Below are positions 20,491 to 57,996 of a stretch of DNA of 64,000 nucleotides, piece after piece (position 1 is the stretch's first letter; every line of letters begins with the position of its first letter). Both the position numbers and the translations under genes were made by a program. A model generated the notes under the pieces. It ran no database searches. It saw only the letters and a program-made list of their open reading frames with translations, and was not told the origin of the DNA. Source of the DNA: Mycobacteroides abscessus ATCC 19977 (GTDB taxonomy: Bacteria > Actinomycetota > Actinomycetes > Mycobacteriales > Mycobacteriaceae); the NCBI RefSeq assembly GCF_000069185.1, contig NC_010397.1, positions 4,030,001 to 4,094,000 on the forward strand, read 5' to 3'.

Positions 20491-21735
20491 ATGTCACAAC
20501 CGCAGCGTCGCGTGGAGACGGCCCCCGCTATCGCACCCGTCCCCGTCCGCACCGAGCTGCCTGGCGGGGTGCACGGCTGGGCCCAACCCGAGTTCGATCG
20601 GGTGGTTCGCAAGTTCGCGTCGATGTACGTGGGCCGCATCGGCGGCGGCGCACTCTGCGTATATGTGGACGGCGAACCGGTGCTCGATATCTGGGCCGGC
20701 GAGGCGCGTCCGGGCATGCCCTGGACCCACGACACCGCGCCCATCGTCTACTCGGCGTCCAAGGGCGTAACCGCCACCGTCATTCATCGGCTGGCCGACC
20801 GCGGGCTCCTAACCTATGACGCTCCCGTGGCCCGGTACTGGCCGCAGTTCGCGGCCAACGGCAAGGAGTCGATCACCGTCCGAGAGGTGTTGTCGCACAA
20901 GTCCGGGCTCGCCGCGCTCGCCCCGCTGGCATCCACACCCGAGGAACTGCTCGATCACGAACTCATGGAGGAGCGGCTCGCCGCCGCCCCCGTCGGGCGC
21001 TTCTACGGCAAGGCCGCTTATCACGCGATGAGCTACGGCTGGCTGCTGGCCGGGCTCGGGCGCGCGATCACCGGCCAAGACATGCGTGCGCTCTACCGCG
21101 CCGAGATCGCCGAACCTCTGGGGGTGGACGGCATCCACCTAGGACGACCACCTGCCGATTCGCCGACCATCCCCGCGGGGATCTACGCGCACCTCGAGAA
21201 GGCAGTGAGGACGCCCTTCTTGTCGCGGGGCCTGTCCCTCGGCGCGCGCGTCATCGACGCCATACCGGCAGCACGCGGCGCCACCGGCGCGATCCATGTC
21301 CCGGGGGCCGAACGCATCGTCGCCGACAACGGACACACCAGTGCACCGCTGTACGACACCCAGATGGGCGCGGGTAATGCCATCTGCACCGCGCCCGCGC
21401 TGGCCAAGCTCTATGCCGCGTTGAGCAATCGGGGAAGCGTCGACGGCCGTCAGCTGCTCTCGGCAGAGAAGACCGCCGAACTGGCCCGGGGGCGCGGGAT
21501 CCGACCCGGCCTTCCCCTTGCCCGCGATATCTGGGACCTTGGCTACCACTGCTTCCCCGCCCCCGGGCTGCTGGGCGGGTTCGGCCACATGGGCGCCGGG
21601 GGCTCCACCGGATGGGCAGACCCCAAGCGTCGCATCGCCGTTGGGCTGGCGCATAACCACCTGATACTGCCCAACCCGATGCACAATGTGGCCTTCCCCC
21701 GGCTATGGGCCGCCACGGTACGCAGCGCGCGCTAG
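20491..21735 (+). CDS. Serine hydrolase of the beta-lactamase/EstB family
   Basis: A 414-residue class C beta-lactamase-fold hydrolase. The SxxK nucleophile motif is in [10 protein letters not shown] (about residues 89-98) and a Tyr motif is likely in [29 protein letters not shown] near the C-terminus corresponds to the KTG-like region. Mycobacterial relatives are LipD and LipL, esterases rather than lactamases. No signal peptide is visible, so it is probably cytoplasmic or cell-associated. Its stop shares CTAG with the convergent R2lox stop. It has no counterpart at this place in M. tuberculosis, so it is an insertion in the core block. Confidence 0.86.
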
Positions 21736-22673
21736 GCCGTGGCGGCGAGCGCCTGACGGTCCTCCGCGGCGAACGTATCTTCAAGCTGCAGTGGTGAATA
21801 GTCCAGATCGATCTCCGCGAGCGGGCGGCCACGGGCACTGCTGATGGTTCCGAATCGGCGCATACCCTTGTCTGCGGAGTACTGCATGAACTCGTCCAGA
21901 GAAAGCCCAAACGGGGTGTCGTCGCCGTAGAGTTCGAAGCCTTCTTCGGTGAGCCGCAGGGCAATCGGGATGAGTTCGTTCATCCGTGCTTCGAACACCG
22001 ACCAGTTCGCGTCATCGGCCGCGACATGACGCCGGCAGGTGAAGGTGCCCCAAGCCATGTGGCGCCGCTCGTCATCTCCGATCCGGTGCACCAGCTCCTG
22101 CATGCCCGGCAGTATCCCGCGATCCACGCAAATCTTGTGCCAAGCAAAATATCCGGTGAGCGCGAGCATGCCCTCCACAACATGGTTATAGGTCACCGAC
22201 GCACGGACCTGCGCCGCCGGCGACGGGTCTGCGGCCAACATTCCGAGAGCATCGGGCAGCCGATCGAAGAAGATCTCGCGGTAGGCCGGCAGATCGTCGA
22301 GATAGCCGTGCAGATCCTCGCTGACCCCGACGGCGTCGAGCCAGAGCCGAAATACCTGAGTGTGCTTTGCTTCCTCAAAGGCGAACTGCGTCAAGTACAT
22401 TTCATCGCCCAGCCGCCCCTCGGCGCGCATCGCGGACATGAACGGCTGAATATCCTGAGTCACCGATTCCTCGCCCGCGATGAACTGCGCGCATAGCCGG
22501 GTGGCATAGTCGCGTTCGCGTTCGGTGAGCGATTCCCAGTCCGCCCTGTCGCGCGAGAAGTCGATACCGGCCGGATCCCAGAATTTCGCGTTACCGCCCG
22601 CGAATAGCTTGAGCGGCATGGAATCCCAATTGAGCCCTCCGGCCCGCAGCGATCCGTATTGTGTGCGCGTCAT
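21732..22673 (-). CDS. R2-like ligand-binding oxidase (R2lox, Mn/Fe)
   Basis: A 313-residue ferritin-like oxidase very similar to M. tuberculosis Rv0233. All residues known for R2lox are in place: metal ligands Glu68, Glu101, His104, Glu167, Glu202 and His205, and the Val71-Tyr162 pair that forms the ether crosslink. The enzyme assembles a heterodinuclear Mn/Fe cofactor and binds a long-chain fatty acid-like ligand; its physiological reaction is unknown. It is not a ribonucleotide reductase subunit: no R1 gene is nearby. Start ATG 22673 ([16 protein letters not shown]). The two Ddn-like proteins upstream are on the same strand, 73 bases away. Confidence 0.93.
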
Positions 22674-29513: not shown

Positions 29514-30059
29514 TCAACCGGTGCGCTGTGGCCCGCGCACCGGCAGCTCGCGGGCCAACCCGCCGAGCCCAAACCAGAACACCGGCTGAAGCACGGCGGC
29601 GACCGGCCGAATCAGGAACCGCGAACCCGGGATGTTCGTCAGGTACCGCGGCGCGCAGGCCAGCGTCCAGTCGACGGTTGCCTTGCCGGGTTCGGGTTCC
29701 GGCACCACCCGGTATTCCTCGCACCAGGACCCGAACACCGGCAAGGTGGCATCTAGCGCCGTGTATCGCATGACGCGGGGAGCATCGAAATGAATGATCT
29801 GCTCGTGCTGGGCGAACACCATCCAGGAGTGGATGTACATCTGAAAGTCCCGGACGGTGCCCGGGGTGGGCGTGATGTCCAGCGGATACCGGCAACCCCA
29901 GACCGACGGCAACCACGACCACATCCGGTCGCCGGACACCACTCGCCAGACATCCTCGGGTGGGGCGTCGAAGGTGCGGCGAACTCGGGTCACAAACGGC
30001 GCCGTCGCGAAGAAGTCCTCGACCCCGTCCGCCGCAATGGGCACTGCGTCAAACCGCAT
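29514..30059 (-). CDS. SRPBCC-fold protein, paired with FMO (copy 1)
   Basis: A 181-residue START/Bet v 1-like (SRPBCC) protein: an N-terminal strand-helix segment (TRVRRTFDAPPEDVWRVVSGDRMWSWLPSVWG), a central sheet (VMRYTALDATLPVFGSW, WCEEYRVVPEPEPGKATVDWTL) and a hydrophobic C-terminal helix (FLIRPVAAVLQPVFWFGLGGL). It probably binds a hydrophobic ligand. It overlaps the FMO gene upstream by 11 bases, so translation is coupled. Two paralogs occur next to the other FMOs of the island. Confidence 0.8.
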   Translation of the reverse strand: MRFDAVPIAADGVEDFFATAPFVTRVRRTFDAPPEDVWRVVSGDRMWSWLPSVWGCRYPLDITPTPGTVRDFQMYIHSWMVFAQHEQIIHFDAPRVMRYTALDATLPVFGSWCEEYRVVPEPEPGKATVDWTLACAPRYLTNIPGSRFLIRPVAAVLQPVFWFGLGGLARELPVRGPQRTG

Positions 30060-31629
30060 GTTCGATCTCCTTCACCGGGCTGCTGATGCGCTTGAATTCG
30101 TATGCGGTCGATGGGAATTGGACACTGCGCCGGTAAGACTGCAACACCGTCCACGGCCGCACGTAGGGCGTATCGCCCTGCGAATTGATGAAATAGCTGT
30201 TGGATCCGGCGCAGTTCACGGTGAAGTACCGGTTCAGGTTCGCGCCGCTGCGGGAGATGCTGGCCTGAAAATCGTCGAGGGCCTCCTGCGTCACCTCAAC
30301 CCAGGTCGCTCTCCTGGCACGGGCCAGTTTGAGTACCGCTTCGATATGGCGCATCGAGTTCTCGAGGATGTAGTGAAAGCTGGTGCCCGTCCACGAATAC
30401 GGGCCCACGAGCATAAACCTGTTGGGCAGCCCAGGAACCGACGTACTCTGATATGCCTGCAGACCGTTGTCGCGATAGAACTCGGCCAGGTCGAATCCCT
30501 TGGTGCCCAATACCGTCCCCACTCGGTAGGTCTCGGGATCGGAGAACATCTCGTAGCCGGTGGCCAGCACCAGCACGTCAATCGGCCGCTCCGTCCCCGC
30601 CCTGTCCACGATGCCGGTCGGGGTAATCCGTTCGATACCGTTCGACACCAGCGTCACATTCGCCCGGTTAAAGGTGGGGAGGTAATCGGCACCCAGCGTG
30701 CCGCGGGTGCATCCCGCTCCGAACCGCGGCCGCAGCTGCTGCCGCACCTCCGGGTCTTTCACCTTGTATCGCAGCCATCCGAGATACGCCCACAACGCCA
30801 CCCGATCGAAAATTGCTCCGCCCGCACGGAAAAGCGGCTTGGGCGTGTAGATCAGCACGCGTAGGCCAAGTTCGATCCCGGCCAAGGCGATTCCATTCAG
30901 GGCATTGGCGAACCGGCGCCGCGACAACAACCGCTGCAATGGCCGCGGCAGCCGGAAGTCGGGTTTAGGGAAGTACCACTGCGGGGTCCGCTGATACACG
31001 TCCAGGTGTTCCACCTCGCCGGCGATGGCCGGAGCGATCTGCACGGTGGAGCTGCCGACACCGACGATCCCGACGCGCTTACCACGCATGTCCACGTCGT
31101 GTTGCCACCGGGACGGTACCTGGACCGGACCGGCGAAGGTGTCCAAACCCGGAATGTCCGGCGCCGTACGAGGATTGATGTAGGCGCCGATCGCACTGAT
31201 CAAGAACCTCGACGAGATGACCTCGCCGCCTGTGGTGTGCAGCCGCCAACTGTGGTTGTCTTCGTCGAATACCTCACGCTGAACACATGTCCCGAACCGA
31301 GCATGCGCACGCAGCCCGTGTTCGGCCACCAAATCCAAGGCGTACTGCTGTATCTCAGCTCCACTGGCGAAGAACCGCTGCCAGTCCCCCTTCGGGGCGA
31401 ACGTGAATTGGTAGGCCACCACCGGAATGTCCGCACCGACGCCCGGATAGGTGTTGCGCAACCAGGTGCCACCGAAATCCTCGTCCCGATCAATGATGAC
31501 GAAGTCTTTGATACCGATCTCAAGCAGCTTGATGGCCGCGCAGATGCCGCCCAGCCCGGCGCCGATGATCGCCACCTCGTAATCAGGTTCGTCGGGCAAT
31601 CCCATGGCTGTCTCCATGGTTCTTTTCAC
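30049..31629 (-). CDS. Flavin monooxygenase, Baeyer-Villiger/FMO type (copy 1)
   Basis: A 526-residue FAD/NADPH monooxygenase. It has the FAD motif IIGAGLGG (about 21-28) and a second Rossmann motif IVGVGSSTVQ (about 189-198), plus the FAD segment FGGTWLRNTYPGVGAD. The Baeyer-Villiger fingerprint FxGxxxHxxxW appears as FAGPVQVPSRW, with Val171 in place of the His. GTG 31629 has AAGGA seven bases upstream. It precedes the SRPBCC gene and is transcribed away from a methyltransferase gene; the shared element at 31728-31763 lies upstream. Substrate unknown; ketone or sulfur oxygenation is inferred from family. Confidence 0.9.
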   Translation of the reverse strand: MKRTMETAMGLPDEPDYEVAIIGAGLGGICAAIKLLEIGIKDFVIIDRDEDFGGTWLRNTYPGVGADIPVVAYQFTFAPKGDWQRFFASGAEIQQYALDLVAEHGLRAHARFGTCVQREVFDEDNHSWRLHTTGGEVISSRFLISAIGAYINPRTAPDIPGLDTFAGPVQVPSRWQHDVDMRGKRVGIVGVGSSTVQIAPAIAGEVEHLDVYQRTPQWYFPKPDFRLPRPLQRLLSRRRFANALNGIALAGIELGLRVLIYTPKPLFRAGGAIFDRVALWAYLGWLRYKVKDPEVRQQLRPRFGAGCTRGTLGADYLPTFNRANVTLVSNGIERITPTGIVDRAGTERPIDVLVLATGYEMFSDPETYRVGTVLGTKGFDLAEFYRDNGLQAYQSTSVPGLPNRFMLVGPYSWTGTSFHYILENSMRHIEAVLKLARARRATWVEVTQEALDDFQASISRSGANLNRYFTVNCAGSNSYFINSQGDTPYVRPWTVLQSYRRSVQFPSTAYEFKRISSPVKEIEHAV

Positions 31630-31880: not shown

Positions 31881-32657
31881 GTGGGCATGCTGCACCATCC
31901 GACACTGGCTGATTCGCTGATCGATCCGGCCCGGATCGATCACCCCCCGCGGCGTGATCACGGCTATCTCGACGTCCTGGGCCCCGAAAGCGATGAACCG
32001 GTGTCCGTTGCCAACCGGTTCATGCAGAGCCCGCTATTGGCGGCGATCTACGAGCGTGCCTGGCGGCCGATGTTCACCCGCGGGTTCAGCTATGGCGGAA
32101 AGAGCACTCTCAAAGCCCATACCGCGCTGATGGACGAGATAGCCGGTCGCGGCGATCACAAGATCCTTGATGTCGCATGCGGTCCCGGCCTGTACACCCG
32201 CGAGCTGGCGGCGCAGCTCGGCACGGCCGGCGTGTGTATTGGGCTGGATTTGTCCGGGCCGATGCTGCGGCGCGCGGTGCGCGACAACTCGGCGGAACGG
32301 GTCGATTACATCCGCGGTAGCGCGCACTCGTTGCCCTTCGCCGACGCCACCTTCGACACGGTGGTGTGCCTCGCCGCGCTGTATCTGATCCCCGATCCCG
32401 AGCAAGCCGTCCGGGAACTATGCCGGGTGGCGGGGCCGGACGGTCAGATCGTCGTCTTCACGTCTCTGAGGACTCGGGCGGCGTCCCTGCCCGGTGTCAC
32501 CACGGCCATGCGCATCGGCGGCTTTCGTGCGTTTGGGCGCGACGAAGTCACCGGCTGGCTGCGCGCCCAGGGCTGGACCGATATCGACCAGACAGTCACC
32601 GGACAAGGTCAATTCATCCGGGCACGCCGCGCGGTCGCCCTCCGGGTGGCAACCTAG
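31881..32657 (+). CDS. Class I SAM-dependent methyltransferase
   Basis: A 258-residue methyltransferase of the UbiE/MenG-like small-molecule type. SAM motif I is ILDVACGPGLYTRELAAQLG (about residues 95-114), motif II GLDLSGPMLRRAV, motif III SLPFADATFDTVVC. An N-terminal segment of about 60 residues (NRFMQSPLLAAIYERAWRPMF) is typical of envelope lipid or quinone methyltransferases. The start is GTG 31881 with GGGAGG four bases upstream (ATG 31887 is an alternative). It is divergent from the FMO operon and ends 17 bases before the end of the EphD-like gene. Confidence 0.85.
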   Translation: MGMLHHPTLADSLIDPARIDHPPRRDHGYLDVLGPESDEPVSVANRFMQSPLLAAIYERAWRPMFTRGFSYGGKSTLKAHTALMDEIAGRGDHKILDVACGPGLYTRELAAQLGTAGVCIGLDLSGPMLRRAVRDNSAERVDYIRGSAHSLPFADATFDTVVCLAALYLIPDPEQAVRELCRVAGPDGQIVVFTSLRTRAASLPGVTTAMRIGGFRAFGRDEVTGWLRAQGWTDIDQTVTGQGQFIRARRAVALRVAT

Positions 32658-32674: not shown

Positions 32675-34495
32675 CTACTTCTTGTTCGGCACCAGCTTGA
32701 TCAGATCGGTCATGCCCGCCTTGGTGGCGAAGTAACGAGTCAGCCCGGGGGCCAGCCGATTGTTGAGGTATTGCAGTCGGGCCTCCGGGGTCACGGGTAC
32801 AACCTGCTTGTTCTTGCGCACCGCACCGACAATCTGGCGGGCGACCTTTTCCGGGCCGTAGCGGCGCATCGCGTAGGCCCTATCCCCGGCCTGCTGCATG
32901 CGCGCCTCTTCGTCGGCACTGACGCCCGAAATTTTAGTGGTGGCAACGATATTGGTGTGCACAACCCCGGGGCAGATGGTGGTGACGCCGATGTTGTGCG
33001 CGGCGAGATCGGCACGCAGGCAGTCGGAGAACATGAATACCGCCGACTTGCTCGTCGAATATGCGGTGAAGGCCTTCTGCGGGCTATACGCGGCCATGCT
33101 GGACAGATTGACGATGTGACCGCCGAGCCCGCGTTCGGCCATCTTGGCCCCAAATGCTCGGCTACCGTTCACCACTCCGAACAAGTTGGTCTCGATGACG
33201 CGCCGGAACTCTTCCGAGGGGGTGTCCAGAAATCCACCGGCAGCGCCGACCCCGGCGTTGTTCACCAGAACATCAGGCACACCATGACGTTTCACGACCT
33301 CCTCGGCGTGTGCGTTGACCGCCTCCTCGTCCGCGACGTTGAGCCGATAGGCGTGCGCCACCCCGCCCGATTGCTCGATGAGGGACACCGTTTCGTTAGC
33401 GCCATCCAGATTGACGTCGGAGAGCACCACCTCAGCACCCTGACGCGCGAATTCGAGCGCGGTTTCTCTACCGATGCCGCTACCGCCACCGGTGATGACC
33501 ACCAGCTGATCCTCAAACGGTCTGCGACTCTTGCCCATTTCTGCCCGCCGTAGCCCACGTCCGGGCTGGTTCCCCGATACCGCATCGATCAGTTCGGCTG
33601 TCGCGGCCGCGAGCACCTGCGGGTGGGAGAACGGCAGCCAGTGGCCGCCATCCAGCACACGCCGCCAGGTCTGTTGATTCCACTTGAGCTCGTCGTCATA
33701 GTTCGATTGCCGCACGGCGGGATCCCGGGTGCCGACGATGACCTGAACGGGCACCCGGGTATGCCGGTCCTGTGGATGCAGCATGGCCGGCAGTGCGTTC
33801 GCGCGGTATACGCGCAATGTCCTGGTGATATCGCTCATGAATGTCGACCCGAGGTGAATGTCCTCCACCGGCGCCCCCTCGGCAAGGGAGAGACCTGTGC
33901 GCCAACGTCTTTCATTCATCGTCAGCTTGAGCAGGACGTTCGGGATGACCGGAGTCATGGATCCGAACATGTAGAGCAGCGAGCCGATCTGGCCCAGCGC
34001 CAGTGCCAGGTTCTTGGGTGTCGGATTGCCGAACCGTGATCGCACCCACTTGCTCATGTGATGCGCGGAGGGGCCCGACACCGACGTGAATGAGGAAAAT
34101 CGGTGCTCCAGTTCGGGATCGCAGATCGCTTCCCACATCGCGACGCTGCCCCAGTCGTGCCCGAGCACATGCACCGGCTTATCCGGACTGACCGCATCGG
34201 CTACGGCAACGTAATCACTGGCCATCTCGGTGAGCCGAAAGTCACGGAAGCTCTTGGGGTTGGAACTCTTGCCCGCTCCGCGATTGTCAATCGCGACCAG
34301 TCTAAAGCGGTCCCGGAGCAGCGGCGCAACACCGTCCCATAGATGGTGCGAGTCGGGCCACCCGTGAACCAACAGGATGGTCTCGCCCTCGGGGTTGCCC
34401 TGCATGAAGTACGCGACGTCGATATCGCCGTTGCGCACCACATGCTCGGTCATACCGCCGTTCGTCACACCATCACGTTCGGTCGTGAGAGTCAT
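32675..34495 (-). CDS. EphD-like alpha/beta-hydrolase-SDR fusion
   Basis: A 606-residue two-domain protein. Residues about 15-300 are an alpha/beta hydrolase with the oxyanion motif HGWPDS and nucleophile region LGHDWGSVAMW (Asp nucleophile as in epoxide hydrolases). Residues about 320-600 are an SDR with TGGGSGIG, NNAG and YSTSK (catalytic Tyr and Lys). The same fusion is EphD (Rv2214c), linked to mycolic acid modification. It is the last gene of a seven-gene minus operon, 15 bases after the reductase. It would let one polypeptide hydrate an epoxide (or ester) and oxidise the product. Confidence 0.88.
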   Translation of the reverse strand: MTLTTERDGVTNGGMTEHVVRNGDIDVAYFMQGNPEGETILLVHGWPDSHHLWDGVAPLLRDRFRLVAIDNRGAGKSSNPKSFRDFRLTEMASDYVAVADAVSPDKPVHVLGHDWGSVAMWEAICDPELEHRFSSFTSVSGPSAHHMSKWVRSRFGNPTPKNLALALGQIGSLLYMFGSMTPVIPNVLLKLTMNERRWRTGLSLAEGAPVEDIHLGSTFMSDITRTLRVYRANALPAMLHPQDRHTRVPVQVIVGTRDPAVRQSNYDDELKWNQQTWRRVLDGGHWLPFSHPQVLAAATAELIDAVSGNQPGRGLRRAEMGKSRRPFEDQLVVITGGGSGIGRETALEFARQGAEVVLSDVNLDGANETVSLIEQSGGVAHAYRLNVADEEAVNAHAEEVVKRHGVPDVLVNNAGVGAAGGFLDTPSEEFRRVIETNLFGVVNGSRAFGAKMAERGLGGHIVNLSSMAAYSPQKAFTAYSTSKSAVFMFSDCLRADLAAHNIGVTTICPGVVHTNIVATTKISGVSADEEARMQQAGDRAYAMRRYGPEKVARQIVGAVRKNKQVVPVTPEARLQYLNNRLAPGLTRYFATKAGMTDLIKLVPNKK

Positions 34496-34510
34496 CCGTA
34501 TCTCCGTTTC

Positions 34511-35638
34511 TCAGATGTCCAATACCAAGCGCTCGCCGTCAGCCCGTGACACACACAGGAGCATCTGGCCTTCGGCGCGCTGAGTTTCCGTCAAAAGGCT
34601 GTCGCGGTGATCGGGACGGCCCGCGAGCACCTTGACCTTGCACGTGCCGCAGAAGCCCTGCCTACACGAGTGCGGTGTGCCGGGCCTGCTGGTGAGGACC
34701 GCTGCCAGGGCGCTCTGATCGGCGCCGACTTCCAACACGGGGCCCCCAATACCCAGCTGGACCTGGAACGGCACACCATGTTCGATAGGAGGAGCCGAAA
34801 ATCGTTCGAAATGCAGCTCGGCTCCATCACATTCGGCCACGGCATCACGAACGACGTTCAGCATGGGTGCAGGGCCACAGCAGTACACCGCAAGATCGGG
34901 ATGTAATGGCGGCAGCAGATCCGCCGGCGTGGGCAACCCGTCCTCATCGTCCGTACGGATGGTGATCCGGTCTCCATAACGGGCCAGCTCATCGCGGAAC
35001 GGAATGGACTCCCTACTGCGGCCGGTGTACGTCATCGTCCACGGCAGTCCCAACTCCGTCGCCACCGCCAACATCGGCAGAATCGGGGTGATACCGATAC
35101 CGCCTGCCACGAAATGGAACCGGCGCGTACCGGTATTCAGATGGCCGGTGGTGGCCAGCGGGAAGGCATTGCGCGGACCCTTGACGCCGAGCACATCACC
35201 GACGCTCACCCCGTCGTGCAGCTCAATCGATCCCCCATTACCGTTCGGTATGCGCCGCACCGCAATTCGGTAGCTAAACCGATCGCGCGGATCGCCACAG
35301 AGCGAGTACTGCCGGACGGCACCCGACGGCAGCGTCACATCCAGGTGCGCGCCCGGCCGCCATCGTGGTAACTCCCCACCGTCGTGCGCGCCGAGGGAAA
35401 GGGCGACGACATCCTGGTCGGCGGCCACCACCGACCGTTCCCGCACCGTCAGGTGGAGCGACCGGTCCACCCATTTGGGTGGCCGGACGGGGCCCAGTAG
35501 CGGACTCAGTCGCAGCACCGCGGGCAGTGTCTTCCCGAGAGCCGCGACAGCGGTCGGTCCCACGACGTCGAGAACCCTCATGCCCCAGGCGAGGGGATGA
35601 CGACCTGTCTGGGTCGCCATCGGGAGTGCGTGTGTCAT
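34511..35638 (-). CDS. Ferredoxin-fused flavin reductase (FNR plus 2Fe-2S)
   Basis: A 375-residue electron-transfer protein. An N-terminal segment is followed by FAD-binding and NAD(P)H-binding domains of the ferredoxin reductase superfamily (RQYSLCGDP, GGIGITPILPML, CCGPAPML) and a C-terminal plant-type 2Fe-2S ferredoxin with ligands in SCRQGFCGTC and LLCVS. Rv3230c, the reductase of the acyl desaturase DesA3, has the same layout, so it should deliver electrons to an iron-dependent oxygenase. Its ATG at 35638 overlaps the stop of the PF10118 gene (ATGA), which makes that protein the natural partner; no Rieske or P450 enzyme is nearby. Confidence 0.9.
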   Translation of the reverse strand: MTHALPMATQTGRHPLAWGMRVLDVVGPTAVAALGKTLPAVLRLSPLLGPVRPPKWVDRSLHLTVRERSVVAADQDVVALSLGAHDGGELPRWRPGAHLDVTLPSGAVRQYSLCGDPRDRFSYRIAVRRIPNGNGGSIELHDGVSVGDVLGVKGPRNAFPLATTGHLNTGTRRFHFVAGGIGITPILPMLAVATELGLPWTMTYTGRSRESIPFRDELARYGDRITIRTDDEDGLPTPADLLPPLHPDLAVYCCGPAPMLNVVRDAVAECDGAELHFERFSAPPIEHGVPFQVQLGIGGPVLEVGADQSALAAVLTSRPGTPHSCRQGFCGTCKVKVLAGRPDHRDSLLTETQRAEGQMLLCVSRADGERLVLDI

Positions 35639-36519
35639 GCCGCGGCCGCAGCCTTGGCCGCAGGAGATTTTGCCAAGTACGCAACCGCCTGCGCGGTATC
35701 GCCGATCGATTCCGGAGTGAATCCGGGCCGCAGAAAACTCCTGAAGCCCTCTCCCAGCACGCTCCACTTCAAGGTGGCGCCACGCTTCATCGCTCGGTTT
35801 GTCTCGCGCAGCCATCGGACCAAACTCATCTTCGGCACCCCGGGGTCGGCCCGCGCGAGCAGCCAGCTGAGCAAGATGAGCCCCACCGGGATGGTGGCGC
35901 AGGAACCGATGAAGTACGCCATCATCCGCGGGCGTCCGACTCCGACGTGCCGTGCAAGATCCCAGGCGACGCTGCGGTGTTCGACTTCCTCCGCCCCGTG
36001 CCAGCGGAACATGTCGGTGATCACCGGGTCGGCACCGTAATTCTCGAATTCGAAGTTGAGCAACCAATCGCCGGCGGTGGCGGTGAGATGCTCGATGCCC
36101 GCAATGATCGCGATGCCCTCGACCATTACGCGATACCGCAGCTTCGGCGGGAGACGATCCATCTGCTGTCTGAATGTGGCGAGCACGCGCTCGGTCAGCT
36201 CGTGTAGCGGTTGCGCGTCGATACCGTGCTGGCTGAAGTACTCCAGCAGTGCCTTGTCGTGCGTATCGGAATGTAGCTGTTCCTGACCGATGAAGCCGAT
36301 GACCTCTTCACGCAGCTTGTCGTCTCTGATGTGCGGTAGCGCCCGGCCGAATACTTCGACGAAGAACAGCTCGCCGGCCGGCAGCATGAAGTTGAGCGCC
36401 GATAACGCGTGGGAGGCTACCGGCTCGCCAGGGATCCATTGCAGTGGAGAATCCGAGAAGTCGAATCTGACATTGCGGGCGTGCAGTGCCACCTCGCCGA
36501 TGGCTGCGGTGTCATTCAT
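35635..36519 (-). CDS. PF10118 'metal-dependent hydrolase', possible di-iron oxygenase
   Basis: A 294-residue helical protein of the family annotated as metal-dependent hydrolase (PF10118). Ligand-like residues are spaced as in ferritin-like di-iron proteins: Glu50 (LPAGELFFVEVF), Glu80 and His83 (GQEQLHSDTH), Glu143 (AGIEHLTA), and His174, Glu178 and His181 (WHGAEEVEH). The HxxxExxH spacing matches AurF. AGGAGGT lies upstream of ATG 36519, which is preferred over a start 15 codons further up. Coupled to the 2Fe-2S reductase, so a redox role is likely. A second member at 40002-40855 has the same ligand pattern but is frameshifted. Confidence 0.82.
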   Translation of the reverse strand: MNDTAAIGEVALHARNVRFDFSDSPLQWIPGEPVASHALSALNFMLPAGELFFVEVFGRALPHIRDDKLREEVIGFIGQEQLHSDTHDKALLEYFSQHGIDAQPLHELTERVLATFRQQMDRLPPKLRYRVMVEGIAIIAGIEHLTATAGDWLLNFEFENYGADPVITDMFRWHGAEEVEHRSVAWDLARHVGVGRPRMMAYFIGSCATIPVGLILLSWLLARADPGVPKMSLVRWLRETNRAMKRGATLKWSVLGEGFRSFLRPGFTPESIGDTAQAVAYLAKSPAAKAAAAA

Positions 36520-36523
36520 CTGG

Positions 36524-37477
36524 TTACCTCCTCGCCGCCGTGGGCTTTCGATCCTCCTCGACACCGCCTTGGCGCGAGAGCAGGTTCAGATCGTCGAGCT
36601 TGCCGAGTGCCCAGGCACCCCAGCGCTCGGCACGTTCGATCGAGAACGCCTGTGTCGTCCGACGGTTGATTCCTGGTGCGACCCGGCCGAGGACATATCC
36701 CAGCCACGCCTCGGTACGCACCGGAACCACGGCGAGGTCGTACCGCACCGCACGGGTAACAGCACGCGCCACCAAGTCCGGGCTCATCGGAGAGAACGGC
36801 AAGTGGGCGGCGAACTCCTGTGCCCGGCGCATGATTTCCTTGCCACGCTGGACCATTTCTTGATCGACCCCAACGGTTATCCCGTTGAGCCCGATGTTGG
36901 TGTTGATAAACCCGGGGCAAATGGCACTGACCCCAACACCTTTGGGCCCCAGCTCGAGCCTCAAACATTCGGTGAGCATCTTCACCCCGGCCTTCGACAC
37001 CGAATACGGCGCCATCACCGCCGTCGGCGTAAACGCGGCAGCCGAAGCGATATTGACGATATGCCCACTACCGCGTTCGACCATCTGCTCACCGAACACC
37101 CGGCACCCATGCACCACCCCCATGAGGTTCACCGAGAGCAAGCGATCCCAGTCGGCCGGCGTGAGTTTCAGGAATGGTCCACCCAGCGCGATTCCGGCGT
37201 TGTTCACCAGCACATCGGCCACACCGTGATCGGCGAGCACATCCCGGGCGAAGGTCTCCCACTGATCCGGGTCCGTGACATCCAACTGCACTGCCGAGGC
37301 GGTGTTGCCGTCGGCCTGGATCATCGCCGTCGTGGCATGCGCAGAGTCGAGATCCATATCGGAGACCACCACGTGGGCACCGCGTTTGGCGAACCTTATG
37401 GCCGTGGCCCTACCGATACCGCTGCCCGCCCCAGTCACCACGACAAGTTGGGGTTGGAGCTGATTGAGTTTCACCAT
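36524..37477 (-). CDS. Short-chain dehydrogenase/reductase (SDR tandem copy 1)
   Basis: A 317-residue classical SDR. It has TGAGSGIG at the N-terminus, NNAG in the middle and the YxxxK pair in APYSVSKAGV; the Asp in DMDLD favours NAD(H). A C-terminal extension of about 60 residues (RRTTQAFSIERAERWG...) is shared with its neighbour. It is nearly identical to the next gene over about 330 bases, evidence of gene conversion. It lies four bases before the PF10118 gene. The substrate is presumably a hydrophobic alcohol or ketone, in line with the adjacent FMO. Confidence 0.9.
   Translation of the reverse strand: MVKLNQLQPQLVVVTGAGSGIGRATAIRFAKRGAHVVVSDMDLDSAHATTAMIQADGNTASAVQLDVTDPDQWETFARDVLADHGVADVLVNNAGIALGGPFLKLTPADWDRLLSVNLMGVVHGCRVFGEQMVERGSGHIVNIASAAAFTPTAVMAPYSVSKAGVKMLTECLRLELGPKGVGVSAICPGFINTNIGLNGITVGVDQEMVQRGKEIMRRAQEFAAHLPFSPMSPDLVARAVTRAVRYDLAVVPVRTEAWLGYVLGRVAPGINRRTTQAFSIERAERWGAWALGKLDDLNLLSRQGGVEEDRKPTAARR
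36891..37216. repeat. Gene-conversion tract, copy 1
   Basis: Identical to 37821-38146 except for one base (37199), with 308 consecutive identical bases. It spans the middle of the SDR coding region. Sequence on both sides drops to ordinary paralog divergence, apart from a second 59-base identical tract at 37368-37426. Confidence 0.92.
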
Positions 37478-37483
37478 GATCGC

Positions 37484-38404
37484 CTACCCCACGCTCTCGA
37501 CGAGCGCCGGAACATAATGCTCCTGCTGTTTGACCAGTGCACGCGCACCGAGTCGCTCGAATCTGTCCACGCCGAACGGCGCCATCAGTCGTCTGTTCAC
37601 CGCAGGCAATGCCCGGGAGACGAAGTATCCGAACCACGATTCAAGCTTCACCGGAACCACCACCAGGTCCAGGCGGATGGCGCGCGTGACGGCCCTGGCC
37701 ACCAGCTCGGGACTCATCGGTGTCCAGGGCAGCTTCTCGGTGAATTCACGAATCCGTTGGATGCGCCGTTGACTCGCGTCGGCGATTTCCGGATCGACTC
37801 CCACCATGGTGCCGTGTACGCCGATGTTGGTGTTGATAAACCCGGGGCAAATGGCACTGACCCCAACACCTTTGGGCCCCAGCTCGAGCCTCAAACATTC
37901 GGTGAGCATCTTCACCCCGGCCTTCGACACCGAATACGGCGCCATCACCGCCGTCGGCGTAAACGCGGCAGCCGAAGCGATATTGACGATATGCCCACTA
38001 CCGCGTTCGACCATCTGCTCACCGAACACCCGGCACCCATGCACCACCCCCATGAGGTTCACCGAGAGCAAGCGATCCCAGTCGGCCGGCGTGAGTTTCA
38101 GGAATGGTCCACCCAGCGCGATTCCGGCATTGTTCACCAGCACATCCGGGACGCCGTACTCGATGGAGACGTAGCGGGCGACGTCCGCCCAATGCGCAGG
38201 GTCGGTGACATCGAGTTGTACCGCGGACGCATTGCGTCCCATGGCCAGAATCAGGTCCACCGTTTCATTGGCGGTATCCAGATCGAGGTCGGTAACTACC
38301 ACGTGGGCACCGCGTTTGGCGAACCTTATGGCCGTGGCCCTACCGATACCGCTGCCGGCACCGGTCACCACCACCAGGCGAGGCTCCGACGGATTGACTC
38401 TCAC
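37484..38404 (-). CDS. Short-chain dehydrogenase/reductase (SDR tandem copy 2)
   Basis: A 306-residue classical SDR, paralog of the gene downstream (six bases apart). TGAGSGIG, NNAG and APYSVSKAGV are in the same places. The start GTG 38404 overlaps the stop codon of the FMO gene (GTGA), so it is translationally coupled to the monooxygenase. The C-terminal extension differs from copy 1. The FMO-SDR pairing suggests that the SDR makes the ketone that the FMO oxidises. Confidence 0.9.
   Translation of the reverse strand: MRVNPSEPRLVVVTGAGSGIGRATAIRFAKRGAHVVVTDLDLDTANETVDLILAMGRNASAVQLDVTDPAHWADVARYVSIEYGVPDVLVNNAGIALGGPFLKLTPADWDRLLSVNLMGVVHGCRVFGEQMVERGSGHIVNIASAAAFTPTAVMAPYSVSKAGVKMLTECLRLELGPKGVGVSAICPGFINTNIGVHGTMVGVDPEIADASQRRIQRIREFTEKLPWTPMSPELVARAVTRAIRLDLVVVPVKLESWFGYFVSRALPAVNRRLMAPFGVDRFERLGARALVKQQEHYVPALVESVG
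37821..38146. repeat. Gene-conversion tract, copy 2
   Basis: Partner of 36891-37216 at a constant offset of 930 bases. The constant offset over both identical tracts shows that the paralogs align without gaps there. Confidence 0.92.
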
Positions 38405-39972
38405 ACACTCTCCCCGGCGGTCGATGCCACGGTCTCTGGCACCACCGAGGCGGTCGAGTAGCGATACACATCAAGGTTGTAGTGGCGGTTCTGCCAATAC
38501 ATTTCACCGTGCGTCGTCGGCCGGAACGGTGAATCACCGTTCTGGTCCAGGTAGTACGTGTTGGAGCCGGCGCACACGTCGGTGAACAGGAAATTCTTCT
38601 CCTGCCGCTTCAAACACTTTCTAAAGTACTCATCGTGGGCTTCCTGGCGTATCTCACACACAGTGGCCCCACGCCGCTTGGTCTCGGCTATGGCACGGGC
38701 GAGGTGCGCCGAAGTAGCCTCAATCATCCAGAGATAGGACCCCAATACAAATCCGTATGGGCCGGTGATGGAGAACATGTTGGGATATCCGGGTACCGAA
38801 ACTCCTTGGTAGGACTGGAAACGGTGCCTGTCCCAGAATTCGCCCAGGTCTTGTCCACCACGGCCGTGCACAGGGAACGGCGGTACCGAACCCTTGTCCC
38901 ACAGTCTGAACCCCGTCGCGCAGATGAGCACATCGACCACGTGCTCGACACCATCAACCGTGCGCACTCCGTCGGGCGTGACGCATTCGATCGACTCGGT
39001 GATCAAACTGACGTCATCGCGGTTGAAGGTCTTGAGGTACTCATTCGACATCGACGGCCGCTTACAGCCCAGCCCGTACCGAGGAATCAGCTTCTCGCGA
39101 ATCACCGGGTCGTCGACTTGGCTCCGCATCCAGCGGCGCATCGGTGCCTCACCCGCGCGCCTGACCGCGTTGATCAGCCAGGCCGGTCCGGCCACCTGAC
39201 CGCTCATCGCCATCTCGATGCCGACGGTCGCAATCGCCCGGATAGCAGAGCGAATCCTGCTGTTCCCCAGGATTATCCGACCCAGCGGGCCAATTTCCAG
39301 GTCGAACTTCGGACCGACCCAGATCGGCGTACGCTGGAAGACGGTGAGATGACTTGTCTCGTCGACGATGGCTGGAACCAGCTGCAGCGAGGTCGCCCCC
39401 GTTCCGATCACGGCAACGCGTTTACCCGCGAGCGCCACATCGTGATCCCACAGCGCGGTATGCATGAGCGTCCCACCGAAGTCGTGCACACCCGGGATGT
39501 CGGGCATCTTCGGGCGCTCCAGTCCGCCGACCGCCATCACGCAATATCTGGCGGTGATCTCCTTGCCGCCATCAGTCGCCAATCGCCACAAGCTGTTTCG
39601 CTCATCGAACTCCGCACGAGTGATGCTCGTACCCAACCGCAATTTGTCACGCAGGCCGTACTTGTGCACCATCGATTCGGCATATTGTTGCAACTCGATC
39701 CCCGGCGCGAACAGACGCGACCAATCGCCGCGCTGCTCGTAGGAGAAGCTGTACACCACCGAAGGGATATCTACCGCCACTCCAGGATAGGTGTTCGCAT
39801 GCCAAGTGCCACCCACCTGATCCCATTTGTCGAGAATGATGAAGTCGTGGATCCCTTTGCGCTGCAGAGAGATACCAGTTCCAATGCCGCCGAATCCAGC
39901 CCCGATCACCGCCACCTCGTGATCAGGTTGTTCCAGCTCAGCCGTCGTTGCATGCCGTGCGGCAGGGCTCAC
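38401..39972 (-). CDS. Flavin monooxygenase, Baeyer-Villiger type (copy 2)
   Basis: A 523-residue FAD/NADPH monooxygenase. It has AVIGAGFGG, GGTWHANTYPGVAVD and VIGTGATSLQ, and it is the only one of the four FMOs here with the intact Baeyer-Villiger fingerprint (FGGTLMHTALWD, His171). GTG 39972 is preferred, because GGAG lies upstream; the longer TTG-started reading adds 28 residues of unlikely N-terminus. It is second in the seven-gene operon, between the frameshifted PF10118 gene and SDR copy 2. It is the best candidate here for a true ketone-to-ester monooxygenase. Confidence 0.9.
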   Translation of the reverse strand: MSPAARHATTAELEQPDHEVAVIGAGFGGIGTGISLQRKGIHDFIILDKWDQVGGTWHANTYPGVAVDIPSVVYSFSYEQRGDWSRLFAPGIELQQYAESMVHKYGLRDKLRLGTSITRAEFDERNSLWRLATDGGKEITARYCVMAVGGLERPKMPDIPGVHDFGGTLMHTALWDHDVALAGKRVAVIGTGATSLQLVPAIVDETSHLTVFQRTPIWVGPKFDLEIGPLGRIILGNSRIRSAIRAIATVGIEMAMSGQVAGPAWLINAVRRAGEAPMRRWMRSQVDDPVIREKLIPRYGLGCKRPSMSNEYLKTFNRDDVSLITESIECVTPDGVRTVDGVEHVVDVLICATGFRLWDKGSVPPFPVHGRGGQDLGEFWDRHRFQSYQGVSVPGYPNMFSITGPYGFVLGSYLWMIEATSAHLARAIAETKRRGATVCEIRQEAHDEYFRKCLKRQEKNFLFTDVCAGSNTYYLDQNGDSPFRPTTHGEMYWQNRHYNLDVYRYSTASVVPETVASTAGESV

Positions 39973-40001
39973 GGTTCGCGTCTCCTTTGACGTTTCGCGG
40001 T

Positions 40002-40855
40002 CTATTTGAGGTGGTCTACGAGAATTCCCTTGCTGCCGAACAGTTCCTGCTGCCAACGTTCCAGCAGCTCATCGGTGTTGATGTCGTCGGGATGGAAACC
40101 GGGCCGCAGGTACTTGCGGACATCACCCACGATTCCCTTGAACAGGGGGCCACCGAAGAGTCCCCTCGCTTCTCGCAACAGCCGCAGCGGCTGGCGGCGT
40201 GCGACGGGATCAGCAAGCAGCGAGCCGGCGAGGATGCCCAAGGTCAGCGGCGGCACGATGGTCATCGCCGCAAGCATCAAGCCTATCCGCATCGTCTCGG
40301 TGCCCCCAACGGCACGGTAGACGTCAAAGGCCACCGACTTGTGTTCCAGCTCCTCCAGGGCGTGCCAGTTGAGCAGATGCCATACCTCGGGATCCCCGGG
40401 AATGGCCTGCACTTCGTCACTACCGAGCGTCCGCTCGGCGAGGATCGCCGTCATGTGTTCGGCCATCGCGGTGAAGGCCAGGTGAGCCCGCGGGGGCAGC
40501 ATGTTCTCAAACCGGATCAACCGGTCGACTTGCTTCTTCGAATCCAACCACGCGATGGGGTAACCCATCTCGATCAGCTTCTCGTTGACCCGCCGGTGCT
40601 CTTGTCCGTGCACCGACTCTTGTCCGATGAAGCCTGCGACACGCTTCTTGAGCACTGGATCGGTGATCTGGTCGGAGAACTTGCGCACCGAACGAATGAA
40701 GCCCTCTTCACCGGGCGGGAAACCCCGGACAGTCCGGCCACGAAATGGCTGTAGACGATGTCGTTTTCCACGAAGTACTTATGGGCGTTGCCGTCGTCGC
40801 CAAAGCGGAATCGGATCCGCCGGGTCTTCGGATACGCCGCAGCCGGGCTCGCCAT
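40002..40855 (-). pseudogene. PF10118 metal-dependent hydrolase-like, frameshifted
   Basis: A paralog of the gene at 35635. The first part reads from ATG 40855 (MASPAAAYPKTRRIRFRF; SD GGGAG upstream) to about base 40727, then the homologous frame shifts: the family residues PPGEEGFIRSVRKF continue in another frame. The total of 854 bases is one short of a whole number of codons, so one base is missing near 40718-40728, next to runs of A and C. The downstream frame keeps GQESVH, AEHMTA and WHALEELEH. It could be a real inactivation, a sequencing error or translation from an internal GTG (40688) of a shortened protein of 228 residues. Confidence 0.75.
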
Positions 40856-41038: not shown

Positions 41039-41734
41039 TCAGTCGGTGGGTAGCAGGATCGGATCGTCCGGGTTCAGCTCGACACCGCGGGCTTTGGCAG
41101 ATGCCGCCAAGCCGCCCCACACGTAGACCACCAGCTCGTCAACGAGGGTCTCCTTACTGATCACCGGCTCATCGAACCAGCGCAGCACCGCGATACCGGT
41201 GGAGGCCAGCATCGCGTCGATCACGTACTCAATATGGTCCGCATTACCACCGCGAGAACTGAAGACCGATCCCACCAACTGTGCAATGGCATCCGACAAC
41301 GGACGCCCGCTCTCGATGAGCGATGTCGCGTTCGCATACTGCACGCCCAGCAGAAAGCGCACCAGGTTGGGACGCTCATCGACAAGGTCGACGTATCCGG
41401 CCATACCTGTACGGAAGAGCTCCAGCAAGGAAACGGACAGGTCGATGTTCGACACCACCCGCTCAACGACCAGCTCCTGCACGCGCATCGCCACCGCGGC
41501 GAAGAGGGCTTCCTTGTCGGTGAAGAAGCGATACAGCTTGGGCCGCGAGATACCCGCGGACTTGAGCACATCGTCGATAGACAGATCGGGACCGAGTTCA
41601 TCGATCGCATTCAGTGTGGCTTCGACCAGTTCCGCGCGGACCTTCGCGCGATGCTCACGCCACCGGTCGACGCGGGCGTCACCGGTCAGCTCAGGAAGGC
41701 CGCGCTCCGGGTACACCTGCGTTGACACGCCCAC
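41039..41734 (-). CDS. TetR-family transcriptional regulator
   Basis: About 231 residues. The N-terminal helix-turn-helix reads LSIDDVLKSAGISRPKLYRFFTDKEALF; the C-terminal ligand domain is helical. The start is uncertain: GTG 41734 or 41728 fit, and no Shine-Dalgarno is clear; the longer upstream reading is not coding-like. Same strand as the downstream operon, 183 bases from its first gene, with a palindrome between, so it probably represses that operon in response to a lipid-like ligand. 293 bases separate it from the divergent TetR of the mce operon. Confidence 0.82.
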   Translation of the reverse strand: MGVSTQVYPERGLPELTGDARVDRWREHRAKVRAELVEATLNAIDELGPDLSIDDVLKSAGISRPKLYRFFTDKEALFAAVAMRVQELVVERVVSNIDLSVSLLELFRTGMAGYVDLVDERPNLVRFLLGVQYANATSLIESGRPLSDAIAQLVGSVFSSRGGNADHIEYVIDAMLASTGIAVLRWFDEPVISKETLVDELVVYVWGGLAASAKARGVELNPDDPILLPTD

Positions 41735-42027
41735 ATCGTAGACCGACCATCGGCCTCCCCGACGCGCATATCGCCAGGTACAGGTCTCGGGAATCTCAAG
41801 GCACTGCGAGTACGGGCAAACCGTACCGTACTTCCAGCAAACAAACCACGCCAGCGGGCATGAGGTTGTCCCCCTAGAGACAGGTATGCGCCACACCTAT
41901 CCGACCTCACAGTATTTACTCGACCTACCGTTCAGCTAATGAGCCAGCTTGTGACGGCGCCCGAACGGTGTCGTGACAACTTCGTGTATTTTCCAACATA
42001 TTTGCCAGCAGTGGTTAATGTGATCGC
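41735..42027. other. Divergent intergenic region between two TetR genes
   Basis: The 293 bases between two divergently transcribed TetR genes. I see no RNA gene, no long inverted repeat and no ribosome binding site that fixes either start, so both transcripts may be leaderless. The downstream third is AT-richer (TATTTTCCAACATATTTGCC) and may contain the promoter of the plus-strand TetR gene. Confidence 0.5.
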
Positions 42028-53552: not shown

Positions 53553-55118
53553 TCAGACAGTTGCCTGTGAATGAACCACGGCCGCCGTGGAATTCGTGGC
53601 GTGCTGCTCGTAGACGTAGTCCATAGCCGGGAAATTTCTCGCTGCTCTGCGCGCCTGCAGCGTGGTGGTCGGACGCAGCAGCGGAACATCGTCGTCAGCA
53701 TTCTTCCAGTACGAACGCACGCCCCGGTTGAGCTCGGTGAAGTAGTACTTCAAGTTCCGGCCGTTACGCAACATGCTCTGATGGAAGCGATCGAGCGCTT
53801 CTTGCCGTACTTCCATACGCGTGGCATGACGCTCACGCGCCAACGAGATGGCACGGACAATATGAGTGACCGCGGTGTCCGCGAGTCCGTGCCAACCGCC
53901 GTTGCCCGTCCATGAGTACGGACCCACAATGATCCAGCGGTTCGGGAACCCGGTGATAGAGACACTCTCGTACGCCTGCATGCCGTGGGTGTTGAAGAAA
54001 TCGCCGAGGTCGCGGCCCTCCGCTCCTATCACCCGCCCCCGCTTGTAGGAGGCCGGCTCGGAGAACAGATCAAAACCCGTTGCGGTGATGAGGAAGTCAG
54101 CCTCATACACGGTTCCATCGGTGGTTCGCACGCCCTCGGGCACCACTTCGTCGATGGGGGTGGTCACCAGGTCGCAGTGCGGCTTGTTGAAGACGCGCGG
54201 GAAGGCTGAGTTCAGGGTCGGCCGGTTGCCCAGCGGACCGAAAGAGGGCAACAGATCTCTCGCCACCCGTGCGTCCTTGACCACCGCACGTAGATAAGCC
54301 CCGTACAGTGCGCGCCCCGCCCTGTCGAACAAGCGCATCAGCGGCCTCATGACCACACCGGGCGTGTTGATGAGGAACCACAGACCTACACTCCCACCCA
54401 CCAGAGCACCCCACTCGATCGCGGCGGTCAGGCCTGGGATACGCAGCGCCCATTGAGCTATCGCGGGGATCCGAAAGTCCGGCTTGGGTATGCAATAGAC
54501 CGGCGTCCTCTGGAACACCACCAGTGACGCGGTGTCGTCAGCGATGGCGCCCGACAGCTGCACACCGGTTGCACCGGTACCGATCACGGCCACCCGCTTG
54601 CCGCGCACGTCGTGTTCGGGTAGCCACTGGGACGGTGTCACCCGAGTGCCCTTAAAACTCTCGATCCCCTTGATGCCGGATTCCTTCGGGTCGAAGAAGG
54701 GACCGATTGCCGAAATCACGAACCGGGCCGTCATCACCGAACCGTCCGCGAGGTTCAGCCGCCAGTGGTGCTGCCCTTCATCCCATTCCTCACTACGCAC
54801 GTCCACGCCGAACCGGAAATGCGGACGCAGACCGAAGTTCTCGGCGACGCGCTGGTGGTAGGCCTGAACCTCGTCGCCCGGGGCAAACACCCTCGACCAG
54901 TGGGGATTACGGAAGAAGGAGTACTGGTAGATCACCGACGGGATATCCACCGCGATTCCCGGGTATACATTGTCCCGCCAGGTACCCCCCAGGTCCGCCG
55001 CCCGGTCGATGATGACGAAGTCTTCGATCCCCGCCTGTTTGAGACGCACACCGGCGCACAGGCCTCCGACCCCCGAGCCGATCACGACGACGTGGTGGTC
55101 GGGAATTGATGCCGTCAT
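53553..55118 (-). CDS. Flavin monooxygenase, Baeyer-Villiger/FMO type (copy 3)
   Basis: A 521-residue FAD/NADPH monooxygenase: VIGSGVGG at residues 12-19, LGGTWRDNVYPGIAVD and VIGTGATGVQ. The fingerprint reads FKGTRVTPSQW, with Thr161 at the His position. ATG 55118 overlaps the stop of the gene upstream. It is followed by SRPBCC copy 2. Substrate unknown. Confidence 0.9.
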   Translation of the reverse strand: MTASIPDHHVVVIGSGVGGLCAGVRLKQAGIEDFVIIDRAADLGGTWRDNVYPGIAVDIPSVIYQYSFFRNPHWSRVFAPGDEVQAYHQRVAENFGLRPHFRFGVDVRSEEWDEGQHHWRLNLADGSVMTARFVISAIGPFFDPKESGIKGIESFKGTRVTPSQWLPEHDVRGKRVAVIGTGATGVQLSGAIADDTASLVVFQRTPVYCIPKPDFRIPAIAQWALRIPGLTAAIEWGALVGGSVGLWFLINTPGVVMRPLMRLFDRAGRALYGAYLRAVVKDARVARDLLPSFGPLGNRPTLNSAFPRVFNKPHCDLVTTPIDEVVPEGVRTTDGTVYEADFLITATGFDLFSEPASYKRGRVIGAEGRDLGDFFNTHGMQAYESVSITGFPNRWIIVGPYSWTGNGGWHGLADTAVTHIVRAISLARERHATRMEVRQEALDRFHQSMLRNGRNLKYYFTELNRGVRSYWKNADDDVPLLRPTTTLQARRAARNFPAMDYVYEQHATNSTAAVVHSQATV

Positions 55119-56451: not shown

Positions 56452-57996
56452 TTAGTTCGACCGCGTGGTGGCGGTCTCGGCCAGCTGCGGGCTCTTCGGC
56501 TCGGGTAACCGGTCAAAACGGAAGTCGTCCAGCGGAAAACGCTTGCTGGCTCGCGTCGACTGGTACGCCGTGGTGGGCCGCAGGAATGAGAAGTCGCCGT
56601 GGCGGTCGATGTAGTACGAGTTGGCGTTGACGCAGGCACGGCCATGCATGAGCGTCGACTCGGCCTTGGGCGCGATGAACTCAAAGAATCTGTTATTGGC
56701 CTCTTCCGTCACCGCGAACGCCGTGGCCCCTCGCTTGCGCGCCTCGGTGATGACCCGCACCGCGATACGCGTGGCGTTCTCCACCATGACGTGCCAGGAG
56801 CTGCCGCTCCAGGCGAATGGTCCAAAGACCATGAAGGTGTTGGGCAACTGGGGCATCGTGACACCCTCGTAGGCCCGGGCACGATTGTTCTCGTAGTAGT
56901 CCGCGAGGTCGAAGCCGTTGCGCCCCTTGACGGGGCGGGCGCGATACACCTCAGGGCTTTGTGACATTTCGAACCCCGTCGCGAGCACCAGCACGTCGAT
57001 ATCGCGGCGCACTCCGTCTCGGGTGACAATTCCCGTCGGCGTGATCTCGGCGATCGGATCGGTCACCAGATCCACGTGCGGCTGGGTGAAGGTCCGATAG
57101 TAGATATTCGAGACACTGGGACGCTTACATCCGAATCCGTACTCGGGTGTCAGTTTCTTGCGTAGCTCGCGGTCACGCACTTGAGTGAAGAGGAAGGCAC
57201 GGCACGCCCAGTTTGGGATGAGGGTTATCGGCGCTATCTGCTTGCCGTACACGGTGATTGCCACCAACCCGACTTCCACCGCAGCCGCGGCTATTCCCCG
57301 GATCAGCGACTGTAGACCAGGAATGTACTTCAGCGCCCAGCGGGCGGCGCGCGGTATCGGAAAATCAGGCTTGGCGAAAACCCAGATGGCACGGCGCTGA
57401 TAGACGTCCAGATGCGATGCCACCCGCGCCATTTGGGGAATGAGCTGAACAGACGTAGCGCCCGTACCGATGACGGCAATCCGCTTGCCGGACAGGTCGT
57501 AGTCGTGATCCCAGTTCTGGGTCTGGATAACCTTGCCGCCGAACGACTCCAAGCCTGCTATGTCCGGCACCTTGGGCTCGACGAAGGCACCGACAGCGGT
57601 GATGACGAATCGGGATGTGATCACACGGCCATCGGCGAGGGTCAGTCGCCACAGGTGATTGTCCTCATCCCATACCCGCGCCATGACCTCATGCCCCAAG
57701 CGGAGATGGTCGTTCAACCGGTACTGATCCACCAGCCCCGCGATGTACTGCTGCACCTCTCGCCCCTTCGGAAAGGTGCGCGACCAATTGGGATTCTTCG
57801 CGAACGAGAATTGGTACACGATCCCGGGAACATCCACAGCCACATCGGGATAGTGGTTGTTGTACCAGGTCCCACCGATCCCGGCGGAACGCTCGAGGAT
57901 GACGAAGTCGGTCAGACCGGCGCGCTTCAGACCTATGGCGGCACCCAGCCCACCTATCCCCGCGCCGATGATGACGGTTTCGTGCTCGGGATTCAT
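56452..57996 (-). CDS. Flavin monooxygenase, Baeyer-Villiger/FMO type (copy 4)
   Basis: A 514-residue FAD/NADPH monooxygenase: VIIGAGIGG (residues 8-16), GGTWYNNHYPDVAVD, and VIGTGATSVQ. The fingerprint reads FGGKVIQTQNWD, with Gln158 in place of His. ATG 57996 overlaps the stop of the SDR upstream (ATGA); a longer reading upstream is rejected. The order esterase-SDR-FMO resembles the gene content of the mymA operon of M. tuberculosis (FMO, LipR, SDR). Confidence 0.9.
   Translation of the reverse strand: MNPEHETVIIGAGIGGLGAAIGLKRAGLTDFVILERSAGIGGTWYNNHYPDVAVDVPGIVYQFSFAKNPNWSRTFPKGREVQQYIAGLVDQYRLNDHLRLGHEVMARVWDEDNHLWRLTLADGRVITSRFVITAVGAFVEPKVPDIAGLESFGGKVIQTQNWDHDYDLSGKRIAVIGTGATSVQLIPQMARVASHLDVYQRRAIWVFAKPDFPIPRAARWALKYIPGLQSLIRGIAAAAVEVGLVAITVYGKQIAPITLIPNWACRAFLFTQVRDRELRKKLTPEYGFGCKRPSVSNIYYRTFTQPHVDLVTDPIAEITPTGIVTRDGVRRDIDVLVLATGFEMSQSPEVYRARPVKGRNGFDLADYYENNRARAYEGVTMPQLPNTFMVFGPFAWSGSSWHVMVENATRIAVRVITEARKRGATAFAVTEEANNRFFEFIAPKAESTLMHGRACVNANSYYIDRHGDFSFLRPTTAYQSTRASKRFPLDDFRFDRLPEPKSPQLAETATTRSN

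Follow-up and report, generated by a model that had tools for sequence, protein, structure and literature searches.

The locus examined here raises the question of what a protein filed as a metal-dependent hydrolase does beside a reductase whose gene overlaps its own. Both genes lie on the minus strand of a stretch of 64,000 nucleotides of Mycobacteroides abscessus ATCC 19977 (NC_010397.1, positions 4,030,001 to 4,094,000), referred to below as the window; coordinates are those of the window unless another locus is named. The first gene (35635..36519, ATG at 36519) encodes a PF10118 protein of 294 aa, a candidate di-metal oxygenase, and the second (34511..35638), assigned from its domain matches, a PDR-type flavin/2Fe-2S reductase of 375 aa. 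The PF10118 stop codon TGA (35637-35635) and the ATG of the reductase gene (35638-35636) overlap in four bases, ATGA; the coordinates and the overlap given in a first-pass annotation of this DNA were correct. We estimate at roughly 0.74 the probability that the PF10118 protein is an O2-activating di-metal enzyme which is fed by the overlapping reductase and oxidises a hydrophobic substrate. The role of a di-iron oxygenase working with the reductase, as proposed in that annotation, is supported by ligand conservation, fold class and the near-obligatory pairing of the two genes in one clade, and oxygenase activity is what we infer from them.

Proposed ligand residues and fold of the PF10118 protein

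The 294-aa protein matched PF10118 (Metal_hydrol) with 199 bits over residues 13-271 (cut-off 33.2). NCBIfam held no family for it at E≤0.001, and sequence comparison with solved structures gave chance-level matches only (best E 0.58 and 0.19). The seven residues previously named as metal ligands (E50, E80, H83, E143, H174, E178 and H181) were all found at the positions claimed. They were invariant in an alignment of 63 sequences that included the window's own, the others being 41-89% identical to it. With whole-genome paralogs and other loci they were present in 119 of 119 sequences, down to 21% identity, and after addition of eight plasmid-borne copies (five from Gamma- and Betaproteobacteria) in 127 of 127, so that no family-wide loss of ligands was seen. 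Ten of the 15 invariant columns (gaps set aside) are Glu or His, namely E50, E80, H83, H87, E143, H174, E177, E178, E180 and H181. Conservation of helix 4 is partly selected in 80 of the loci because these were retrieved by patterns containing H174, E177, E178, E180 and H181; the sets free of this bias (34 loci from the Pfam profile and the eight plasmid copies) retain all seven ligands. The spaced ligand pattern, which was composed after the protein had been seen, matched 78 of 200,000 shuffles of the protein, and among stop-to-stop frames of at least 150 aa in the window it occurred only in the two PF10118 frames.

As had been claimed, the ligand pattern E, ExxH, E, HxxxExxH is that of AurF and not of a zinc hydrolase. 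Both the zincin motif HExxH and the metallo-beta-lactamase motif HxHxDH were absent from all 127 PF10118 sequences. That the protein is a true metal-dependent hydrolase, as annotated, with the reductase adjacent for another reason, would agree with the hydrolase name in Pfam and NCBI records and with a bare HxH in 31 of the 127 sequences. An HD pair occurs somewhere in 97 of them; at H87 there is no fixed HD motif, since the following residue is variable (D in 48/127).

When PF10118 models were submitted to Foldseek, the best rows were redox di-metal ferritin-like proteins, including R2lox, acyl-ACP desaturases, chains of the aldehyde-deformylating oxygenase (ADO) type and MMOH; no title of the heme-oxygenase-like fold was among the best 50 fold matches listed. 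Judged from these models, the PF10118 fold is that of the class of di-metal ferritin-like oxidases, and the seven ligands are predicted to lie on four helices. Such matches speak against a hydrolase. They also bear on the idea that the same site and reductase carry out a net reaction other than oxygenation, as in a desaturase, an R2lox-like two-electron oxidase or an ADO, all of which appear among the best rows and have ferritin-like folds in common. R2 proteins and desaturases have a six-ligand pattern, however, and the extra His of HxxxExxH, H174, fits AurF instead; the SDR (short-chain dehydrogenase/reductase), hydrolase and Baeyer-Villiger monooxygenase (BVMO) neighbours would fit a pathway that opens with addition of a hydroxyl group. 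We regard a non-oxygenating reaction as unlikely.

The label AurF-like stood up in part. Ligand pattern and ferritin-like di-iron fold are those of the N-oxygenases AurF and CmlI (PF11583), and to that extent the term is fair, without extending to membership in the AurF family. In hmmscan at E≤10 the protein matched PF10118 and, by chance, TraL, and neither PF11583 nor the R2/R2lox family PF00268. Similarity of the PF10118 and AurF profiles in hhalign was not significant (probability 0.8-1.4%; score 21.7 with P 0.042, P ranging over 0.037-0.07), 3 of 200 decoys scoring equally high and the reversed AurF profile reaching 16.0. Parts of the alignment were shifted by one helical turn, with helix 4 in register (HGAEEVEH versus HVAEEARH), and the spacing from ExxH to the third Glu is 60 in PF10118 versus 48 in AurF. 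Because of the missing PF11583 match and the insignificant hhalign result, the protein was not filed as AurF. We place PF10118 among the ferritin-like di-metal oxidases as a branch of its own, whose AurF ligand pattern may reflect either descent or convergence. The 5.1 Mb genome has 11 PF10118 and seven PF11583 matches and is thus heavily loaded with candidate di-metal oxidases. Helix 196-224 was considered as a membrane anchor and the idea dropped: its hydropathy, with a maximum of 2.01, is uninformative because values of this level are also usual in the AurF family control (≥1.6 in 27 of 30).

Pairing with the reductase

The reductase contains Fer2, NAD_binding_1 and FAD_binding_6 domains. 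Its motifs (flavin RQYSL 109-113, GIGITP 180-185, 2Fe-2S CX4CX2CX28C 325-362) conform to the PDR/VanB-type layout of flavin, NAD(P) and C-terminal plant-type 2Fe-2S domains. The first-pass annotation had called it an FAD (flavin adenine dinucleotide)/2Fe-2S reductase, of which the flavin/2Fe-2S part holds by domains. The best solved relatives are phthalate dioxygenase reductase and two P450-reductase fusions, which we take to be of the CYP116B type; on this ground flavin mononucleotide is the likely cofactor rather than FAD.

For the forward set, the best 80 of 545 confirmed loci were taken from genome contigs of related actinobacteria. In 79 of them the reductase gene directly follows the PF10118 gene on the same strand, the exception being a Segniliparus locus (L056). 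Overlap of the two genes was counted in 49 of the 79 pairs, a figure biased upward by taking the nearest possible start. Within the matched stretch of the 79 partner reductases, the 2Fe-2S motif was found in 74, the flavin motif in 78 and G[GA]IGITP in 72. In the reverse direction, relatives of the reductase were searched in 151 genomes of the family, with at least 30 loci and the second and third copies of the window genome included. Of these 32 loci, 31 had PF10118 next to the reductase, the window's own pair among them, the sole miss being the third copy of the window genome (about 40% identical). The same was seen in 20 of 20 further loci hand-picked from further down the list, where the PF10118 match of L224 is partial, which makes 51 of 52 in total; five weaker reductase matches in the window genome (24-54 bits) are outside these linkage counts. 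The same pair, annotated as 'metal-dependent hydrolase' and 'PDR/VanB family oxidoreductase', is carried by a plasmid of Dietzia kunjamensis, and Gordonia malaquae (L108) also has a pair. The reductase-linkage label takes three changes on a quick tree of 35 rows, versus a mean of 12 when shuffled. The linkage proposed from this single locus is thus found in other genomes; it is a property of one clade and near-obligatory there.

Several counts weigh against a general role of the reductase in the family. Among the 11 PF10118 copies of the genome only two have a reductase directly beside them, and eight lack one over a distance of at least 6 kb. The copy at 40002 shares the operon with the reductase but lies about 4.4 kb upstream of it. 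When wider flanks of 21 loci (L115-L135) were inspected, a reductase was present in three (L118, L127 and L128), with an alpha/beta hydrolase between it and PF10118 in the latter two, and only one of eight plasmid PF10118 loci has one. The two-in-eleven count would suit a true hydrolase, as would the alpha/beta hydrolase that often adjoins; the two-way pairing is nevertheless near absolute within its clade. Motifs, fold and linkage together disfavour a hydrolase, which we rate as very improbable. Also considered was a non-catalytic or peroxide-handling ferritin-like protein, serving as an iron or redox buffer or in stress, to which a reductase was added in one clade. The varied contexts of the clade without an adjacent reductase would be in keeping with such a protein; a seven-ligand AurF-type site conserved down to 21% identity, and the adjoining catabolic oxidoreductases, argue against it, and we rate it as very improbable too.

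A P450 or Rieske protein as the real partner of the reductase was likewise disfavoured by a motif scan of the 80 loci. P450 motifs were found in none and Rieske motifs in one when only the same strand and a distance of 4 kb were considered, and in one and four, respectively, in the whole locus (regular expressions used without a positive control). The statement that the operon holds no other terminal oxygenase is true of P450 and Rieske motifs, none of which was found in the window and the open reading frames (ORFs) scanned; it does not extend to the BVMOs, which are flavin oxygenases themselves.

Proposed reaction and known di-metal systems

We propose for the PF10118 protein the role of an O2-activating enzyme of the ferritin-like type, with a carboxylate-bridged di-metal centre (Fe2 or Mn/Fe) built from the seven ligands. 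Electrons would pass from NAD(P)H to the flavin and the 2Fe-2S cluster of the overlapping reductase and on to the di-metal site. The reduced site would then take up O2 and oxidise a hydrophobic substrate, hydroxylation of an unactivated C-H bond being most likely. The product may be passed to the co-encoded SDRs, to an alpha/beta hydrolase-SDR fusion and, at the window locus, to BVMOs. Hydroxylation, SDR oxidation to a ketone, Baeyer-Villiger insertion and ester hydrolysis would form a coherent sequence, as judged from gene content. We infer metal identity, electron flow, O2 chemistry and substrate alike.

The arrangement can be compared with several known systems. The hydroxylase of soluble methane monooxygenase is fed by the flavin/2Fe-2S reductase MmoC, and the complex has beta, gamma and regulatory subunits. 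Its ferritin-like di-iron hydroxylase, MMOH, is among the Foldseek rows; PF10118, by contrast, is a single gene without such subunits, and the 2Fe-2S domain of its reductase is C-terminal, unlike that of MmoC. AurF and CmlI differ from the PF10118 protein, which has a dedicated PDR-type reductase. R2lox and R2 small subunits (PF00268) differ from PF10118, which has the additional His on helix 4, and we know of no need of theirs for a flavin/2Fe-2S donor. A recent precedent is offered by MboA/MboB, described as a di-iron acetylenase that depends on a dedicated flavin and Fe2S2 reductase (PMC13185094). MboA resembles the PF10118 protein in this pairing, whereas its fold is heme-oxygenase-like and the PF10118 models match the ferritin-like class.

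The family is probably mislabelled, because the protein resembles an enzyme that uses oxygen at two metals and is accompanied by its own electron supplier; a large family would thus carry a name pointing to the wrong chemistry. In two candidate sets at least 2787 and at least 4090 of its proteins were counted at E≤0.001. If these are oxygenases, they would provide new C-H (or N-) oxidising catalysts and account for the first step of orphan actinobacterial SDR/hydrolase/BVMO operons; one clade has its redox partner already identified, and reconstitution is therefore directly testable. More tentatively, PF10118 might be a separate, undescribed family of ferritin-like O2-activating enzymes, one reductase-linked clade of which performs the first C-H hydroxylation in actinobacterial lipid, terpenoid or steroid-like pathways. 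Thousands of members now labelled hydrolases would then belong to it, with pathways continuing via SDR, BVMO and esterase steps.

Among the matches listed in the open-access literature no functional study of PF10118 was found, nor any mention of COG3687. The one paper in which PF10118 is named, a published screen, placed a PF10118 group among protease candidates (PMC8960859). MAVA5_10275 of M. avium, a 'metal-dependent hydrolase' that may be a PF10118 relative, is located near flavin monooxygenases; in a screen for reduced extracellular DNA it was hit by three transposon insertions, and the phenotype was complemented (PMC5142616).

Operon, second PF10118 gene and surrounding genes

In order of transcription, all on the minus strand, the operon consists of the second PF10118 gene (40002..40855), BVMO2 (a Baeyer-Villiger-type flavin monooxygenase; 38401..40056, these being ORF limits and the real start possibly lying further in), two SDR oxidoreductases (37484..38404, 306 aa, and 36524..37477, 317 aa, each from ORF and domain match), the PF10118 gene, the reductase gene and the alpha/beta hydrolase-SDR fusion (32675..34495, 606 aa, from domain matches). 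A methyltransferase gene on the opposite strand (31881-32657, +) separates the fusion from BVMO1, a second BVMO-type flavin monooxygenase (30049..31629, -), which is adjoined by a Polyketide_cyc2/SRPBCC protein (29514..30059, -). A TetR-type regulator (41039..41896, -) is encoded upstream of the operon. The BVMOs and SDRs expected in the operon were present by domain matches, and a promoter and terminator scan of 34300-36700 gave no signal above chance. Mycobacterium sp. D16Q13 (L035) shows the same order of PF10118, BVMO2, SDR, SDR, PF10118, reductase, hydrolase-SDR and BVMO1. The gene that most often accompanies the pair encodes the alpha/beta hydrolase-SDR protein, whole or in part (29 of 32 reverse loci); in 44 of 80 loci an SDR or hydrolase match lies within 4 kb and on the same strand. 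BVMOs are not general: they occur within 5 kb in five of 80 loci and in nine of 32 reverse loci.

The frame of the second PF10118 gene, which belongs to the clade without adjacent reductase, is broken. The ORF as listed (228 aa from GTG 40688) begins only after the codon of the first ligand Glu; the N-terminal portion is encoded in a different frame, from ATG 40855 on. In L035 the counterpart is intact in one frame (284 aa, 3663-4517). The claim that this paralog keeps the same ligands thus applies to the DNA of the downstream frame and to the intact relative, and not to the listed ORF, which is without the first Glu. The split may mark a pseudogene or stem from a sequencing error.

PF10118 is common on Acinetobacter plasmids, which make up 56 of the 76 plasmid records that have a match; at the one Acinetobacter locus inspected (L167) no reductase was seen. 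An mce-type importer operon (MlaE and MlaD matches) starts near the cluster, from 43002 onward (+), and another PF10118 copy of the genome begins at the base that follows the stop codon of an MlaD/Mce gene (L119, 6673-8844). Given these mce/MlaD neighbours, a connection of PF10118 enzymes with lipid or sterol uptake is possible. A PF00268 protein of 313 aa that resembles the ribonucleotide reductase small chain, possibly an R2lox-type oxidase, is encoded at 21732-22673 (-). Past the mce operon lie two more BVMO-like flavin monooxygenases (FMO-like/Pyr_redox_3; 53553-55118 and 56452-58113, both -).
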